Origin: Allodiplogaster sudhausi
Lineage: Eukaryota; Nematoda; Chromadorea; Rhabditida; Diplogasteridae
Direction: 5' to 3'
DNA length: 64,000 nt
Assembly: GCA_945643635.1 (NCBI GenBank)
Contig: CALZFC010000356.1
Location: forward strand, 2,499,001 to 2,563,000
Made by a program: the position numbers and the translations under genes
Part shown: piece by piece, positions 3,723 to 62,234 of the stretch
How the letters are laid out: each line of letters begins with the position of its first letter
How positions within the stretch are numbered: the stretch's first letter is position 1
The notes under the pieces: model-generated
Databases searched by the model: none
What the model saw: only the letters and a program-made list of their open reading frames with translations
Told to the model about the DNA's origin: nothing

Positions 3723-3904
3723 CAGTGCTGAAATAGCGACTGTCTCTGAACTTGGGCCGTGGGGTTACAATGTAAAAAAAAATAGATGAACTATAAAATG
3801 AAAAAGGCCATCCCGGCTGGTTACAAAGTGTTCCGAGCTTACGACCCGGAGGGGGGGGGGGGGGGTTACAAACCCTGTCATGGGTGAGACCTATTTCAGC
3901 TCTG
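3723..3904 (-). mobile_element. hAT-type MITE, copy A (182 bp)
   Basis: Terminal inverted repeats CAGTGCTGAAATAG (left) and CTATTTCAGCTCTG (right). A perfect 8-bp target duplication CTCGGGAC flanks it at 3715-3722 and 3905-3912, diagnostic of the hAT superfamily together with a CAGTG terminus. There is no coding capacity. Read on the minus strand, the left terminus ends AATAG|GTCTCACC (donor-like) and the right terminus is CTATTTCAG|CACTG (acceptor-like). A run of 15 or more G lies inside it. Confidence 0.85.
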
Positions 3905-9253: not shown

Positions 9254-10742
9254 CTACACTCCAGCGCGTCGGCTAAGTCGATTCTCGTACCTCTGTCGAC
9301 GCTCTTCGGCCTGTTGCTGAACACGATGCTCAGCACGATTCAGCGGACCGAACTGAGGCGGCGGAGGGACGGGGGCCACAGCCGGTGCGGCTTGTGGCTG
9401 AGCGCGATGGAGCGGTGGCGGAGGAGCGAAATTGACAGGGGCGACCGCCGGTTGGGGAGGAGGCGGGGGAGCAACTGCACCGAGAGAATGATCCAGAAGA
9501 CGATGCATAACGACGTAGAAGACAGTCGGCCGGGCCACCTGCGCAGCATCCTGAAGTGGACGAGAGTTAGGGAGGATAGAGAGCGAGAGAGAGAGAGACA
9601 GAGAGAGAGAGAGAGAAAGAGAGAGAAGAACGAGAGGAAGAAAGAAAGTAAGAACACTGAAACTATACATTATTAGCCGGCTGGGGACGAGACGGGGGAG
9701 CGACTGCATGACGAGCGACGTGAGAAAGAGCAGTCGCCAGCCAATCCGGCATACTCAAAAAGAAGAAATAGAGAGACGGGAGAGAGAGAAATACAGAGAG
9801 AGAGAGAGTGTGTGAGCGAGAGAGAAGAAGAGAGAGAGAGGGAGAATGAGATATACATATGTCCACATATCACAGAAGTACTTTCCAAATATTCTGGTAC
9901 AACAAACCTGTGCCGCATGAGGTCCCCGAGCGTAGGGTGAGCGTTGTATTTGACAACCAGTGCTGAAATAGTGACTGCGTCTTGACTTGGACCGGGGCTT
10001 ACAAACTGCCAATCCGGGGGATGCAAAGTGAACAACCGCCAACCCGTGGGTTACAATGTGTTCCGGCCCTTCGGCCCGGTGGCTTCCATCGCTATCATGT
10101 GTCAGACCTGTTTCAGCACTGGTGACAACGGCTTCTTTGTGATGAAATGAGGAGAGAAGAGCCTTCGCTTTCTCCCGACCAACGCAGCCGTACAGCAAGA
10201 CGAGCTGGACTCCCAGCTTCTAAAGTACGAGAAAATCAATGCTATCTTCCGCAGATTCCGCCATGGTTTCTCACCTCGATTGCCTTCTTAATCTCCGGGA
10301 GGGGCTCGCACACGAAGCGGAAATGTGCGAACTCGACCGACTTCAGCCTCCACACGCGAAGATGAACAATGTCGCGGTCGACGTCCGAATAATTCACCTC
10401 AAATAAAGCTTGGACGAAGTAGTCAAATTTCGTTCCCCAATACAATTTAATTCTCAAATAAAAAAAGTAATAAATCAGTATACTACTCAACAAACATGAA
10501 TTGTTTTTGTCATCATCAAATGATGCAATCAATGAGCCGAAACCAACAGAGAAGGGGCGAGAGATGCGTGGGGAATAGAACCGAAGGATGTACTTATCGC
10601 TGCCTTTTTGTATTATAGTTATGTGGTCGGGAGAGAGGCCGGCCGTGTGCATGAAGGCGACGCCATCCAGGAAAGTCTGCCCCGACTTCTGCAGCAGAAT
10701 CTTCTCAATGCACATCGCAGTCAGACTCTTGACGTGCGTCAT
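9254..10742 (-). CDS. Unrecognised protein; one exon interrupted by a MITE-derived intron
   Basis: Minus-strand exons: 10742-10594, 10452-10275, 10219-10108, 9962-9908, 9753-9669, 9550-9254 (stop TAG). All phases agree, and all introns have GT...AG ends. The total is about 291 codons from ATG 10742, which could be internal. The N-terminal half is globular (VHLRVWRLKSVEFAHFRF; KLGVQLVLLYGCVGREK). The C-terminal 70 residues are rich in Pro/Ala and end in an Arg-rich helix. No family was recognised. Exons 3 and 4 are one ancestral exon: bases 9958-10121 between them are a hAT-type MITE with its target duplication, and removing it also gives a continuous frame. The protein would gain nine residues if the MITE is spliced. 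Several introns contain long GA tracts on the plus strand, i.e. CT on the sense strand. Exon 9753-9669 has a degenerate copy at 7.65 kb. Confidence 0.55.
9958..10121 (-). mobile_element. hAT-type MITE, copy B, inside a coding exon
   Basis: TIRs CAGTGCTGAAATAG (9958) and CTGTTTCAGCACTG (ends 10121). Flanking 8-mers TTGACAAC (9950-9957) and GTGACAAC (10122-10129) match at 7 of 8. On the minus strand the inner edge of one TIR gives AACAG|GTCTGACA and the other gives CACTATTTCAG|CACTG, defining a 145-nt intron (10107-9963). The sequence kept in mRNA is 14+5 nt of TIR plus the 8-nt duplication, 27 nt, preserving frame. Confidence 0.85.
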
Positions 10743-16947: not shown

Positions 16948-17820
16948 TTAAAGAGCAGCCGTTAGCAGATCGCGGGGGTTTCGAGAATGGCCGGGCAGTC
17001 GCAGTCCGCGTCGTGGGGGTCCCAAGTGGGAACGACAGTACCCTCTCTCGATACCGTAGTTGTGCAATACAGCGCACGCAAGAGCCACTTTCGCCGCCTT
17101 CTCCGGAGAGAGACGACACCTCGTGGAGAGAATAGTGAACCTCTTCTTTAGCCAGCCGAAGGTCTGCTCAACTAAAACACGTGTCTTCGCTTGCTTCTTG
17201 TTGAAGCGGGCCTGTTGCTGGGTTACGGCCCCTCTTGCATTCGGTGTCATCATCCGCTCTCCATTCTGGAACCCACTGTCCCCAACCAGTGCGTAGCCAG
17301 GGACTCCGTCAAGTGCATCAAGCGCAATCTTGGTCGTCGATTGCGAGAAGATGTAGGAGTCGTGAGACGAGCCTGGGTATCTGAGGTTAAGATAAAAAAA
17401 CCTGCCCCTGTGATCCACTATGGCTAGAATATTTAGGGCACAGAAGCCTTTTCGGCAGCGGTAGTTTCCCGGGTTCGAAGACGGGGTGGCAATGGGAACA
17501 AGGGTCCCATCAATTGCACCAATCACATTCGGTAGACCGGCGAAGCGGGAAAATCCACGAGCTGTGTGAGCTCGCCAGGCAGCGTCATGGACAGGGAAGG
17601 ATATGAATCGATCGACTACTGCCGGCTCTGTCAGGGCGTCGACCACTCTGGTGATGATATCCGAGATTGCTTTCTGGCTTGTCCCGAACCGGTCTGCGAT
17701 GACAGACTGGTGCGTGTTCGTTGACAAGTACGTCACGCATGCAGCCACCTCGAATATTCTCTCTTCTCTCTATCTCTCTACTCTCTCTATTCTCTCTCTC
17801 TCACTGTCTCTCCCTCCTCT

Positions 17821-25100: not shown

Positions 25101-28100
25101 GAGATTTGCCCGTGTTTGATGATGGGGCTGGAATAGAGGATTATAAAAAGCGGAGATCTAAAAAGCTCCGTTCCCTCTTCGAAAGCCACTGATCCAATTT
25201 TACTATCGAACATTTGATATGAAAAAAAGAATATTGAAGTGAAAGAATGTAATAGGTGTTGTGTGTTTATATTTGAAATAATAATTTAAAAACAAATTAT
25301 GTTTAATAGGGAAAACATAGTTAAAGAGGTTGTCCATATGGCAGCTTAAATTCGACCGTAATTTACTACTTCGTGTATCGTATTCTTTTCTTGAGGATTA
25401 CGGTAGTTTTTTTTAAATAAAGAGTTATCGTATTCTTTTCTTGAGAATTAAGTTAGTTTTTTTTGTAAATAGTCCCTGATCATGGTCTTTAAAGAGAATT
25501 TGTTTTGCCTTTCAGCAACTGGCGGAATCCGCTGTCCGCCGCGACCTCTGCTACACGGGCCACTCGACAATGCTCTTCCCCTCGCGACTCTGGGAAGCGG
25601 CGCCCTCCGCAGATGACATCATACGATTGGCGGATATTTGGCTGCTCACTCTAGAGAAGCGAGGCTGTGCGACTGTGATGAAGACGGGGGCAACTGGCAT
25701 TATTCAGGTGCAATCAATGAGTAGTACTTGTGAACAAGAGCGGTGAGAACATTTAGTTACAAGGAAATGTTCACATCGCTGGGAAGAAGTTGTTGTCAGG
25801 CGTAAAAGTGCGCTAGGTAGCGCTTTCCGCAAGGATAAAGGAAGGCTACAGACAAGCTACCACTTACGAGGAAGGCAGATTTGATTTTGAAATGATCGAC
25901 GAGAGAAGTATGCTTGGCAGTACAAGAAGGATTAATTTGTATATGTTTTTTTCCAAAAGGCTTTATGTTTTGATGTGCGAATGGTTTTGTTCTTCCTGAA
26001 CGCTTTATGCATTAGGGTAAGAACGGTTTTGGTTTTATCAGAAGGCTTCTTGCATTGGGGCCAGAATGGTCTAGCTTTTATCATATCTCATTATGCATTA
26101 AAGTAAGAATGGTTTTATTTTTTTCAGAAGCCTTTATGCAGTGGTCTAAGAATGGTTTTTTTTAGGAGGCTTGATGGATGGGTTTTGAATGGTTTTGTTT
26201 TTCCTGAACGGGGGTAAGAATGGTTTTATTTTTATCATAAGGATCAATGCTTTGGGATAAGAATAGTTTTGTTGTTTTTATCAGATGTCTTTAGTAATTC
26301 GGTAAGAATGGATTTATTTTTATAAGAGGACTTGCGCATTGGGGTTCAAATTGGTTTTGTTTTTTCCTGAAGGCTTTATGCATAGAGGTATGAATGGTTT
26401 CATTTTTTTCAAAAGGCTTTCTGAATTGGGGTAAGAATGGGTTTTATTTTATTAGATGGTTTTAGTCATTGGGTAAGAATGGCTTTATTTTTATAAAAGG
26501 CCTTGTCTTGTGCATTGGGTTTAAAATTGGTTTTGTTTTTTTCTGAAGGCTTTAAGCATTGGGATAAGAATAGTTTTTTTGTTTCAGAAAACTGTATGCA
26601 TTGGGGTTAGAATTTTCCAGAAGACTATACAATATAGTTTGAATGTTTTTTTTTTTTAAATCAAAAGGCATTTTGTATTCTGGTTTGAATGTATTTGTTT
26701 TTCCAGAGGGCTTTATGCAGCGGGGTAAGAATGGAATTGCTTTTATCAGATGTATTTATATTTTTCCTGATGACTTTTTGCATTGGATAAGATGTTTTGG
26801 GTGCTATTTTTTTTAGCAGAAGACTACGGATAGTGGTAAGGATGGCTTTTTTGTAATCAGATGGCTTTATGCATTGGGTTTAGAATTGTTTTGTTTTACC
26901 AGAACCCTTTATGCATTGATATTCGAATAGTTTCGCTTATATCAGAAAACTTATGCAGTTTTGAAGCAAAGTTTAGTATGAATAGCTTATTAATTGGAAA
27001 TTATGAATTTGAGGTATTCCTGAAAAGTGGAAGAATGCCTTGTAATTGTCGTTTCCCTCTTTTCCAGGCCTACGTCCTCTCACTCGCCGCGGGCACCTTC
27101 CACGATGGACATCTCGAGATCGGCCTGGATCCATCCGAGTTGCATCGAGAGATGTCCGTGAAGGGACTGGAGATGGGAGACGACCAGAAGACCAAGGTCA
27201 ACGTGGACATTGAACTGGACTCGGAGAACAGGCCGTATTTTATGGTTAGGAAACATCTTATTTTTTCTTTAGGATTACGGTGGTTTGTAAGAAGGAACAG
27301 TGCTGAAACAGTGCTGGACTCTGGACTTGGGCAGAGGAATTACAACTCATGGGTTACAAAGAGAAAGATGGCCAGCCCAGAGGGTTACTTTGTTTCCGGG
27401 CTTTTAGCCCCGAGGGTTACAACGCTGTCATGGGGGAGATCAATTTCAGTACTGAGAATGAGGTATTTTATTGTGAGGAAAGTGGGGAAGATGTGGCTAT
27501 TTCATGGTGATTAAAAGCGGGGAAGAAGGGGTTTTTTCTGGTGAGGAAAGGGGCATCTTTGCTTGAGGATTACGGTACTGTGAATGAGCAGGTATTTCAC
27601 GGTGAGGAAAGTAGGTAAGAAGGTGAATCTCTGGCACCCTTTCTCTCGTTTCTCTCTCTCTCTCTGTTTTTCTCTCTCTCTCACTCTCTCTCTCATTCAT
27701 TGTGAATAAAATGGGGAAAGAGGCTAATGAAGGGGTTACTTCATGGTAATGAAAGTGGGGGAAAAGGGATTATTTCGTAGTGAAGAGAGGCGGGGGAAGA
27801 AGGGGTTATTTCGTGGTGAGGAAAGGGGCATATTCTTTTGAGGATTACGGTATTTTACAAGAAGGGGTATTGCATGGTGAATAAAATGAGAAAGAAGAGA
27901 ATATTTCATTGTGAGGAAAGGGGTGTTATTTTTTTTGAGGTTTTTGGGGAAAAGGGGGTTTACTTCTTTTAAGAGGAAGGAGCAATTTCCTTGAGAATTA
28001 CGAAAGTTTTTAAAAAGGGGTCTTTGATGGTTAGAAAATTGGAGGGACATTTTTTCTTGAGGATTATGGTAGTTTTAAGGCCCCGGAGCTTCTTTATTTA

Positions 28101-31365: not shown

Positions 31366-31530
31366 CAGTGCTGAAATAGGTCTGTCCCATGACAACGTTG
31401 TAACCCTCCGGGCCGATGGGCCGGAATCCTCACTTTTCCGTAATTCTTTCACTTTATGATCCCCTGGCTGGCCATTTGGACGTTTGTAACCCCCGGCAAA
31501 AGTCGAGAGGCAGGCACTATTTCAGCACTG
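31366..31530 (+). mobile_element. hAT-type MITE, copy D, in pseudogene intron
   Basis: TIRs CAGTGCTGAAATAG and CTATTTCAGCACTG are perfect, with a perfect 8-bp target duplication GTTTTGCC (31358-31365 and 31531-31538). The homologous intron of the intact MARS1 gene has a single, uninterrupted GTTTTGCC at about 39439-39446. Sense-strand splice-like edges: AATAG|GTCTGTCC and CACTATTTCAG|CACTG. Confidence 0.93.
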
Positions 31531-49918: not shown

Positions 49919-50269
49919 TGTTGCGAGCAAGAAGACAGGTATCCTTTATTGTCCCTCAAACTTGGGTAATTAAACCGTTCATCTCAAACATAAAATCGAA
50001 ATGAAGAGAGTAAAATGAATAATAAGTGCTTGACTTCTCCTTTTAAAGCACGATAGAAAGCATTCCAGACATTCTGTCTTCTATCACAATATCAAGGAAA
50101 GAGGAGGAGATGGTGATTCATATAGACCTTTTCATATGTCTGGCAGAAGAGAAGGGTGAAAAACAACTCATCTAGAATTCTTTTCCTTTACCAAAAATAG
50201 ATGAAGCGGAGGAATGATTCATTAGTAGGATGGGGGAAAAGAACTTCCTATACTCGGCACTTGCCGACA
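49919..50269 (-). mobile_element. Candidate LTR (351 bp)
   Basis: It begins TGTTGCGAGCAAG and ends ACTTGCCGACA (TG...CA on either strand) and lies just 3' of the minus-strand Env remnant, where a 3' LTR would be. Its left boundary coincides with the break in a repeat whose other copies are uninterrupted. No second LTR is in the window, so this is inferred from position and termini. Confidence 0.45.
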
Positions 50270-50301
50270 CTGGGGGAGAGGAAATTAGCGAAGACAAAAA
50301 G

Positions 50302-50985
50302 CTACATACAGATTTTGCAGACGAAGAAAATGACCATGATTGGTGATGCTATTAGAACAATAGAATAGGACATATGATCTGCAAGGAGGGCCAATATATT
50401 ATTTCGAGTGGCAATGATGAGGCCGAACTGAGTGTTGCTTTTTTGTTCGCTTACATCGAAGATTGTCTTGAGAGTTCCATTGATCTTGACTTTGATTTGT
50501 TCGCGACCACAGCTTAGTTGGCAGTTCTCTTGAACTTCAGAGGTGGAAGAAGTGAAGGTAGTCATCCTCGTAATGGCTTCGGGCGTGCACTTCACAGAGA
50601 GGGCTTTTCGTCAGCGTTGCCCCAGCACTACAGCTATGACAGCCGACCATGCTTGTTGAATCCATCATGCATTTCGCATGCGACTCGATCTGAGCGAGCT
50701 TCAAGTTCTGGATTCTAATCGAAAGATCGGCAACTGCGGTCGGCTGTGCCACAGATACCGAACTGCCTTCTGCTTCAAACCAGACTGAACCTTGCCGTTG
50801 TGGAAGTGTGCATCTTCGAATTGCATTTGCGGTTGCTTGTCCACTTGCGCAGGCACACTTGACTAAGTCGTCGTCAGCTAATTTGCACTGACAAGCTTCC
50901 TTTCTGAATTGGCACTGGCTGAGATCTGAGGAGTTGCATGGGAAGACTGATGCTTCTCTTTCTTCCTCAGGCGTCAGTAGAAGTT
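50302..50985 (-). pseudogene. Env-like remnant with Phlebovirus G2-type domain, from an LTR element
   Basis: Minus-strand frame from about 50985 to about 50560, shifting frame near 50560-50590 and continuing to a stop at about 50302. A Cys-rich region (FPCNSSDLSQCQFRKEACQC) is followed by the pattern typical of Phlebovirus-G2-like fusion glycoproteins of invertebrate BEL/Pao-type elements (ESHAKC, GCHSCSAGA), and the end has a hydrophobic membrane anchor (IVLIASPIMVIFFVCKI). It is 5' truncated by an in-frame stop at about 50985, carries a frameshift, and no gag or pol is present. It is a dead fragment. Confidence 0.6.
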
Positions 50986-59118: not shown

Positions 59119-60242
59119 AGGTGGACTTGGCTCGTGGAGAAGGGAACCTGTCCTCTTCTAGCGAAGATGATGACTCTGGCTCGGAGTGGGAGTTGGAAGA
59201 GCAGGAAGAGGAGCATGGATGGGGCGAGCTAGACAGGTTTTGTTCTTAATTAATTATTTAATTTTGCAACTTTTCTAAAATAGTAAATTTAACGAAGAAG
59301 ATATATATACTGCATATGAAGAACTGCGGAAGCTACGCTAATTGTTTGTCTTTAAATGATAATGTGGTAACGTGCGATTTGGTGGCTTTTATATTGAAAG
59401 GATGTTGAGACGAGGGAACACTTATGGTTCCTTACATCCTAAACCACTTGGTTAAACGAGCAAAATGGAATCAAGGATAGGAATAGGAGGGCCTCTCTCA
59501 CAATCAGCTATCACTACACAACACTGTTCCTTTCTCTGCTGGCAAATAGCTCCGCTTCTCTTTCTGGGACGTGATATCCTGTACTATCACAATCATAAGT
59601 TAATGATATAAAATGAAGTGAAGCGCCCTTTTGTCAGGCAAAAAGGTCGCGAATTCAAACGTCAATTTGTTCCTCTCCTTTAAGAGAAGCGCGCCGCGTG
59701 GAGTGGGCGTCTCGCCGCCTCGCCATCTGCAACCTGGACTGGGATCATCTGTCATGCGACGACCTCTTCATGCTCGTGTCCTCCTTCAAACCACTGGGCG
59801 GAGAGTGCAGCCGACTGGCCATCTACCTCTCCGACGTGGGCAAGGAGAAGCTGGCCAAGGAAGAGTTGCATGGGCCCGAGCTGAAGATGGCCATGGAGAT
59901 AGGAGGAGAAGGAGGAGAGAAGGCAGACAGCGAAGAGGAGGAGGAGAACGACGAAGACGAAGAGAATGCTAATGAGAAGTCGGGATCTTTTTTAAATATT
60001 TTTCCCGCACTTTTTTCCTTTTTTTTAATTTTGGTGAATCAATTGAAGAGATATTTTCGCCATCTTTGCATTGGATTTGCTGGAATGTGGTCAAGAAAAA
60101 GGCAACAATTCAATGAATGTTCCACAGATCGCGCAGCGAAGCAATACGCCGCTATCAGCTGGAGCGACTCAAGTTCTACTACGGAGTACTGGAGTGCGAC
60201 TCGGCGCAGACGGCAAGCGCCATCTATGAGGTCTCTTTTTGG

Positions 60243-60284
<42 letters not shown>

Positions 60285-60348
60285 CTCTCTCTCTCTCTCT
60301 CTCTCTCTTTCACTCTTACTGTGCATTCTCTCTCTCTCTCTCTCTCTT

Positions 60349-60379
<31 letters not shown>

Positions 60380-60691
60380 TTCACTCTTACTGTGCTGCTC
60401 CCATTGTCTTTCTATATTCAAGCCCCTTTCCTTCTTTCCTCTCGCCCAACTTTCTATCTCACTCTGTCTCTCTACTTCTATTTCATTCTTTGTTCTCTCT
60501 CATCCCTTTGCTTCTCTTTCTATTCTTCCACTTCTCTCACTCTCTCCATCTCCCATTCCTTTGCTTCTCCTTTTTTCTTTCTTTTTTTTATCTTTCTTTC
60601 TGTCTTCCTCTCACCCAACTCTCTAGTCTCTCTACTTAAATTTCTTTTTTTCTCATCCATTTCCTTATCTTTCTATTTTTCTACTTTCTCC

Positions 60692-60742
<51 letters not shown>

Positions 60743-61218
60743 GCCTATTTCTTTGCTTCTCCCTTTGTCTTTATTTTTTAGCTTTCTTGCTCTCTTCCTA
60801 TCGTTCAACTCTCTGGTCTCTAATTCTATTTCGTTCTCCCGTTCTCTGTCTCTCTCTGTCTCTTTCTCTCCCTCTCTCTCCCTCTTTTCTCTCTCTCACT
60901 CTCTCTCACCCTCACTAAGCTTCTCCCCTTCTCTTTCCATATTCTAGGCGTTTATTTTTTTATTTTTCTCTCGTCCCATTTGCTCTCGCTCTCTCTTTCT
61001 CTCTACTTCTATTTCATTCCTTGTTCTTTCTCATCCATTTGCTTCTCGCTGTCTCTCTCCCTCTCTCTTTCTCTCCGTCTCTTTATTACTTTGCTTCTAC
61101 CTTTGTCTTTATTTTTTTTAAATCTTTCTTTCTGTCTTACTCTCGCCCAACTCTCTAGTCTCTCTACTTATATTTCTTTTTTTCTCATCCATTTGCTTAT
61201 TTTTCTATTTTTCTACTT

Positions 61219-61254
<36 letters not shown>

Positions 61255-61591
61255 ACCCTCACTGTAATTCTCCAATTGTCTTTCTATATTCTAAGCCTCT
61301 TTCCCTCTTCCTCTTGCCTAATTTTATATCTCTCTCTGTCTTATCACTTCTATTTCTTTCTTTGTTCTCTCATTCAATTCTCTCTCTCTCTCTCTCTCTG
61401 TCTGTGCTGTCTCCCCCTCTTTCTCCGTCTCCTTTTCCTTTCTCCCTCTGTCTTTCTTTTTTTATCTGTCTTTCTGTCTTCCCCTCTCCCAATTCTCTAG
61501 TATCTCTAATTCTATTTCTTTCATCCATTCTATGTCTCTTTGTCTGTCTTTACTCTCTCTATCTCTTTCTCTCCCTATCTCTCTCCTCTTT

Positions 61592-61628
<37 letters not shown>

Positions 61629-62234
61629 CTCTCCCTAACCAATTCTTTTGCTTTTCTCATTGTCTTTGCTTATCTTTCTTTCTGTCTTCCTCTCGCCCAA
61701 CTCTCTAGTCTCTCTACTTATATTTCTTTTTTTTCTCATCATTTTGCATATCTTTCTATTCTTCTACTTCCTCTCTCTCTCTCTCTCTCTCTCTCCCTCT
61801 CCCATTCCTTTCTTCTCCCTCTTTCTTTCTTTCTCTCCTCTTCTCTCCCAACTCTTTTCTAGTCCATCTACTTTTATTTAATTCTCCCATTCTCTGTATC
61901 TACTCGCTCTGTACTTTCTCTCCCTATCCCTCTCCTCTTTCTCTCCTCTCTCCTCTTTCTCTATATCTCTCTCTCTCTCTCTTTCTCTCCTATATCTCTC
62001 TTTCTCTCATCTGTCTCTCCCTCTCCCATTTCTTTGGTTTTCCCCTTGTCTTTCTGTATATCTTTCTTTCTCTCTTCCCCTCGCCCAACTCTCTAGTCTC
62101 TCTACTACTATTTCTTTTTCTCCTCTTATTTCCTTTTTCTCTCTCTCTGTCTGTCTGTCTCTCTGTCTCTCTCTTTCTCTCTCTCTCTCTTCCCTCCATT
62201 TTCTGCATTTCTCTCTCCCTTTTTCTCGCTCTTG

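Follow-up and report, generated by a model that had tools for sequence, protein, structure and literature searches.

An exonic hAT-type MITE that is most likely spliced as an intron in a duplicated gene of Allodiplogaster sudhausi

The third exon of a duplicated, nematode-conserved gene of Allodiplogaster sudhausi contains a hAT-type miniature inverted-repeat transposable element (MITE) in sense orientation, which is most likely removed from the transcript as an intron of 145 nt. The gene lies on the minus strand of the window, by which we mean the whole stretch of 64 kb that was analysed (contig C346, positions 2499001-2563000, of an assembly of 352 Mb in 382 contigs). A non-autonomous hAT-type MITE has inserted into exon 3 with duplication of 8 bp of target. 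In the mechanism that we propose, the end of its left terminal inverted repeat (TIR) would act as splice donor (AG|GTCTGAC) and its right TIR as acceptor (TTTCAG|CACTG), with the spliceosome treating the interior of the element as a GT-AG intron. The mRNA would keep 14 and 5 nt from the two TIRs together with the duplicated 8 nt, at a cost of nine extra residues. Since the retained ends and the duplication amount to 27 nt, the frame would be kept whatever the inner length of the element. GT-AG sites that restore the frame can be read directly from the sequence where the TIRs end, their use in the worm is likely, and the host gene is presumably expressed. Formation of an intron by a transposon with splice signals at its ends is a known, rarely caught route of intron birth. 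A single genome here displays where the intron came from, where it landed, which related sites lack it and how many nucleotides are retained, so that intron birth becomes directly testable, and the 14 + 5 + 8 nt geometry suggests how a transposon may enter an exon with little harm.

The element in exon 3 and its predicted splicing

The inserted element, copy B of its family, measures 164 bp (9958-10121, minus strand) and is bordered by TIRs of 14 bp, which on the minus strand read CAGTGCTGAAACAG at 10121-10108 and CTATTTCAGCACTG at 9971-9958; the latter includes the acceptor motif TTTCAG. The target-site duplication (TSD) consists of GTTGTCAC upstream (10122-10129) and GTTGTCAA downstream (9950-9957), which agree at seven of eight positions. 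A second copy of the gene, on contig C340, carries an element identical to copy B at 162 of 164 positions and flanked on both sides by GTTGTCAC, a perfect 8/8 duplication. A chance TIR match was ruled out, as the TIR pattern with at most two mismatches occurs eight times in the 64-kb window against 0.80 expected, and none of 100 shuffles reached eight or more. The first-pass annotation had placed a hAT MITE inside an otherwise continuous minus-strand coding exon, and this was borne out to the base by the TIRs, the TSD and paralogues with an empty site; the span that it had marked, 9908-10219, is exactly exon 3 of our gene model.

This model has five exons and four introns that are shared among the gene copies, the element being an extra in the window and C340 copies. 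Exon 1 (10544-10742, with the ATG at 10742) is modelled consistently in four paralogues, and the least secure junction is the one that joins it to exon 2; the splice scores of intron 1 are weak (-4.7 and -6.9), which makes this part of the model less certain. Exon 2 (10275-10408) could be aligned with 12 public homologues. Exon 3 is divided by the predicted splicing into a 5' part (10108-10219), of which the last 14 nt are the left TIR, and a 3' part (9908-9962), which starts with 5 nt of TIR followed by the duplication. It is followed by exon 4 (9669-9753), which has a counterpart in the paralogues on contigs C55 and C246, and by exon 5 with the stop codon (9254-9550). The modelled proteins have lengths of 293 (window), 306 (C340) and 245 amino acids (both C55 and C246). 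A Pfam scan of four frames covering the exons of the host gene gave no family.

The paralogues C55 and C246, which were found by a genome search, have the other four introns at identical positions and an exon 3 that is continuous at the insertion site. Public databases yielded 17 homologues, and all 14 that carry a source name are from nematodes, Pristionchus first; the C55 protein matches a P. mayeri protein at 81% over 164 residues. In a comparison at the protein level, the motif R.K..VCEYG, which spans the insertion point, is contiguous in 15 of the 17 (P0015 and P0016 gave no motif match), and none of the 12 homologues that were aligned has an insert at the site. That an ancestral intron was present and was later taken over by the MITE is extremely improbable, given the unbroken exon in two paralogues, the continuous motif in the public homologues and the exonic nature of the duplicated sequence on both sides of the element. 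The first-pass annotation had proposed to look for the orthologous exon without insert in a related strain or species; an exon continuous at the site is present in C55 and C246 and, at the protein level, the sequence is continuous in most public homologues, and the ancestral intron that would have spoken against its reading was not found in these relatives. On this comparison copy B is a derived insertion into coding sequence.

Left in the mRNA, the insert would add 172 nt and shift the frame, as had been proposed before, and the gene model agrees with this, since the phase at the end of exon 3 would then misfit exons 4 and 5. Cutting from 10107 to 9963 removes 145 nt and leaves 27 nt, of which 14 + 5 come from the TIRs and eight from the duplication, with an open frame. 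The nine residues that this predicted splicing adds are TSAETALVV; at the level of sequence the earlier calculation of this cut was thus reproduced in full. With the TIR versions that are common in the MITE family, one codon phase out of three leaves the retained ends without stop codons, and copy B is in that phase.

To rank the options, we listed GT-AG pairs in which the donor lies 60 nt or more into exon 3 and the intron is 30 nt or longer, which gave 13 in-frame, stop-free choices. The best one, with a score of 7.4 by a C. elegans matrix that was not trained on the host genome, is the 145-nt intron at 9963-10107 (CAG|GTCTGA...CTATTTCAG|CA, with ATTTCAG|CA at the acceptor). Its acceptor outscores the other four modelled acceptors of the host gene by the same matrix. 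The donor matches the consensus CAG|GTAAGT at six of nine positions, where the other donors of the gene match at 3, 6, 7 and 4, and it has a C at position +3 that is absent from these four modelled donors. When the whole element was shuffled with dinucleotides preserved, an equally high in-frame, stop-free pair arose in 4 of 400 cases; when shuffling was confined to the interior and the TIRs were left intact, this happened in 58 of 400.

The second-best choice uses the same acceptor with a different donor (TTT|GTAAGC...ATTTCAG|CA, 9963-10002). Splicing from another donor, chiefly this one, would remove 40 nt and exonise about 119 nt of the MITE. This intron is also in frame and stop-free, the element is open throughout in that frame, and the score is 5.6 as against 7.4. 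However, none of the introns modelled for the four paralogues is as short as 40 nt (they start at 51 nt), and the donor of this alternative has five consensus matches out of nine as compared to six for the donor at the TIR edge, so that such splicing appears quite unlikely. For the 145-nt splice, the absence of the insert from paralogous and homologous sites, the flanking TSD and the frame-restoring GT-AG borders are what may be expected of an intron of transposon origin, and a transposon-derived intron is supported by these sequence features.

The two carriers and their history

C340 follows the order of the window between about 7.6 and 64 kb (window coordinates), in alignments that are interrupted and range from about 67 to 97% identity. 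The part from 11.3 to 21.6 kb has no alignment, and the retrieved C340 sequence consists partly of N there; for the first 7.6 kb of the window a collinear match is absent. This broken collinearity and the range of identities mark C340 as homeologous to the window or as a strongly diverged allele of it. Outside the collinear order, C340 also has an inverted stretch of about 1.1 kb that is 98-99% identical to window positions 49919-50981 (locus L035, 4349-5463), probably a young transposon. A tandem array with a period of 23 bp and about 40 units or more runs from 41006 to at least 41972 of the window, and an open frame of 273 amino acids on the minus strand (16948-17769) encodes what we take to resemble a Harbinger-type DDE transposase. 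Long CT-rich tracts on one strand, with strong strand asymmetry, occur at 60001-62000 (GC skew -0.68, AT skew -0.64) and also in introns of the genes examined. A recent whole-genome duplication of A. sudhausi is described in PMC12325724.

If the insert is removed in frame, the modelled reading frame of both carriers of the element runs uninterrupted from the first exon to the last. A gene broken elsewhere was rejected as an explanation, within the limits of the model, as the frame is intact and without stops. Two small differences exist between the carriers: an indel of 1 nt immediately ahead of the stop codon alters the C-terminus, and a 2-nt indel at the border of exon 2 and intron 2 is placed in the intron by the model. 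Between the carriers dN and dS are 0.093 and 0.146 downstream of the insert and 0.044 and 0.074 upstream (values given without a significance test), which points to a constraint that is mild at best. With a ratio so little below one, a duplicate that is decaying or under relaxed selection stays a live rival. The gene copy could be a pseudogene or silent, with the MITE merely interrupting it and the in-frame splice being a matter of luck in orientation, phase and TIR geometry. The protein has diverged fast from C55 (window versus C55, dN 0.30 and dS 0.60), and the carriers' dN/dS of about 0.6 is far above that of C55 and C246 (0.013/0.088). Furthermore, one lucky landing would suffice, since the in-frame geometry of 27 nt is a property of the family. 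Against this, the full-length modelled frame is without a stop in both carriers, and the gaps within exons in the alignment of the two are 9, 6 and 3 nt long, with a further gap of 3 nt at the border of intron 1 and exon 2. On balance we regard a dead or silent copy as unlikely, and a live gene that splices out the element as the better reading. A weakly constrained gene is also where an insertion of nine residues would be most easily tolerated. The 3' part of exon 3 (9908-9949) and exon 4 (9669-9753) show 6 differences in 50 and 9 in 85 positions between the carriers, as compared to 11 in 330 in the 3' flank; judged by eye these exonic differences largely alter amino acids, hinting at fast evolution of the duplicate.

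The differences between the carriers are unevenly distributed over the gene. From intron 2 to the right end of the element there are 4 in 317 positions, as compared to 19 in 269 before and 40 in 391 after this tract (Fisher 4e-4 and 2e-7, respectively, for regions that were picked after seeing the differences). The best low-divergence tract, with 3 differences in 312 positions (window 10287-9976), was matched in 1 of 60 shuffles, and the rest of the gene is mostly 3-13% diverged. This pattern suggests gene conversion between the two carriers, ending near the right border of the element. If this is true, the element may have landed first in the C340 copy, and the mismatched base in the right duplication of the window copy would be the native base. 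Such conversion also makes the age of the intron uncertain.

The MITE family and its latent splice sites

A pattern of 28 bases from the 5' end of the element, with at most two mismatches, gave 393 matches in the genome, and the reversed control none. Copies were chosen by similarity to copy B or by this pattern (20 + 20 loci), with loci L001-L008 excluded as repeats of later loci and one of 20 loci (L093) dropped for want of a TIR pair. The main set of 58 copies includes copy B and its homeologue, as well as L010 and L012, which seem to be a single insertion present at both of a pair of duplicated loci, and a further set has 19 copies. TSDs with at most one mismatch border 52/58 and 18/19 copies of the two sets (70/77 together). 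More than one mismatch was found for six copies of the first set and one of the second; three of these, with 5-8 mismatches, probably reflect wrong pairing of ends.

Elements of the hAT superfamily prefer nTnnnnAn as target and have TIRs that begin with YARNG. In the TSDs with at most one mismatch, taken on both strands, T at position 2 and A at position 7 each reach 48%, and both occur together in 13 of 58 TSDs, where about 1 in 16 would be expected. The family TIRs start with CAGTG or CAGAG, in agreement with YARNG. The hAT origin claimed for the insert is thus upheld by the 8-bp TSD, the nTnnnnAn preference and the CAGNG ends.

Three other family copies in the window were followed individually. 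Copy A (3723-3904, minus strand) has an 8/8 TSD. Copy D (31366-31530, plus strand) has a TSD of GTTTTGCC that matches at 8/8 positions, and the homeologue has a single GTTTTGCC at the corresponding site (L039, 1377-1384), a clean empty site. As copy D is missing in the homeologue, the family must have moved after the two regions separated; the empty site is also a ready presence/absence marker for movement since then. Copy C (27298-27454, minus strand) adjoins an exon with a DUF2152 match, and the homeologue has a copy here too. It was considered as a second exonic case and set aside, since a likely donor precedes the element and copy C seems intronic.

The search for an autonomous partner covered 259 candidates, among which 150 hAT dimerisation domains were scored; two of these loci were read, and no transposase gene with TIRs like those of the MITE emerged. 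A hAT copy adjoining a family member on contig C80 was rejected as partner because its TIRs differ (CAGGGATGATCA, with TSD ATCACCAC). This copy of 1.4 kb (C80:1094740-1096149; L075, 1541-2950), with its TIRs and TSD placed around a dimerisation domain, belongs to a type for which about 16 loci have an identical domain score, which suggests a recently active family. On another contig, three partial MITE matches stand in tandem about 460 bp apart (C56:650342-651367, part of L027).

Since the 5'-end pattern contains the donor, donor counts are given for the 38 copies outside pattern selection only. A donor GT at the TIR edge was found in 33 of these, and the acceptor TTTCAG in 34 (50/58 overall). 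When family copies were placed at the site of copy B, scores of at least 5 were reached by 39/55 in sense and 8/55 in antisense orientation, or by 24/37 and 5/37 after removal of the pattern-selected copies. A latent donor and acceptor thus appear to be a trait of the MITE family that most sampled members share.

These latent sites and the sense bias are what could be expected if the family were a true introner, with splice-competent ends that make introns in many genes. However, among the 77 sampled copies (58 + 19) from a genome with 393 pattern matches, no second exonic copy was recognised besides the B locus and its homeologue, so that introns at several unrelated exonic sites were not encountered. 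Exonic status was judged by eye on junction frames, with a Pfam scan of 10 of 88 frames, none from the set of 19 copies, which makes this negative result on further exonic copies a weak one. Of the ten scanned frames six crossed the junction, and the other four had been cut back to a single side of it. Three matches were obtained (spermidine synthase, BTB and DUF2152), each to an exon that flanks the element on one side; among the six crossing frames only that of copy C matched, and the match ends before the junction. The three copies with Pfam-matched neighbours seem to sit in ordinary introns. The name hAT-derived introner, which the first-pass annotation had given to the insert, is thus apt as far as a transposon-derived intron is concerned, in view of the TSD, the empty sites and the frame, whereas its implication of a family with many introns is so far unsupported with a single exonic locus among 77 copies; we consider such a family improbable. 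A broader possibility, which we put forward tentatively and hold to be doubtful, is that the ends of this MITE provide a frame-neutral intron (+27 nt) whenever a copy lands in sense in an exon and is spliced, serving as a source of nematode introns, with additional transfer from homeologue to homeologue by gene conversion.

Comparison with known systems

In animals, few sources of new introns have been proven. The family described here resembles other hAT MITEs in being short, with no coding capacity found, a CAGNG start of the TIRs, an 8-bp TSD and hundreds of copies. Exon insertions of maize Ac/Ds, of which Ds is a hAT element, and of C. elegans Tc1 are partly spliced out via sites at the transposon ends. 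Copy B is similar in that an exonic transposon is predicted to be partly cut out of the transcript by means of splice sites at its termini. Those cases are mutant alleles, often with imprecise splicing, whereas copy B is present in both homeologues and in frame.

For nematodes, a survey of 2022 (PMC9169325) described 168 gained introns in Caenorhabditis for which no source sequence was found; it also recounts that 28 out of 122 introns gained in nematodes had earlier been claimed to be similar to other introns, a claim that a later study cut down. A word search of the main text of PMC9860276 (Gozashti et al. 2022), which deals with introners, gave no occurrence of 'nematod', 'Caenorhabditis' or 'Pristionchus'; species tables are in its supplement. 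A hAT introner or nematode introner was not reported in the titles and abstract openings among the matches listed, which lie largely outside subscription journals. Judged by these matches, the mechanism is known, while what seems to be new is the host group together with a source that can be seen.

Many introner families have DNA-transposon features such as TSDs and TIRs, with introns born by insertion; they range from 5 to more than 2,000 intron copies per genome, and several take one splice site from the TSD (main text of PMC9860276). Here, in contrast, both sites are in or beside the TIRs, and most of the sampled copies were not recognised as introns. According to the same text, the introners of Aureococcus carry both splice sites within the element and have an 8-bp TSD, and 4 + 8 = 12 nt are retained, giving four residues. 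The present case differs from these in its retained 19 + 8 nt, in its single recognised exonic locus as opposed to an introner family, and in its nematode host. It shares with them the presence of both splice sites on the element, the 8-bp TSD and a sum of retained ends and TSD that is a multiple of three, which makes the Aureococcus introner the closest parallel known.
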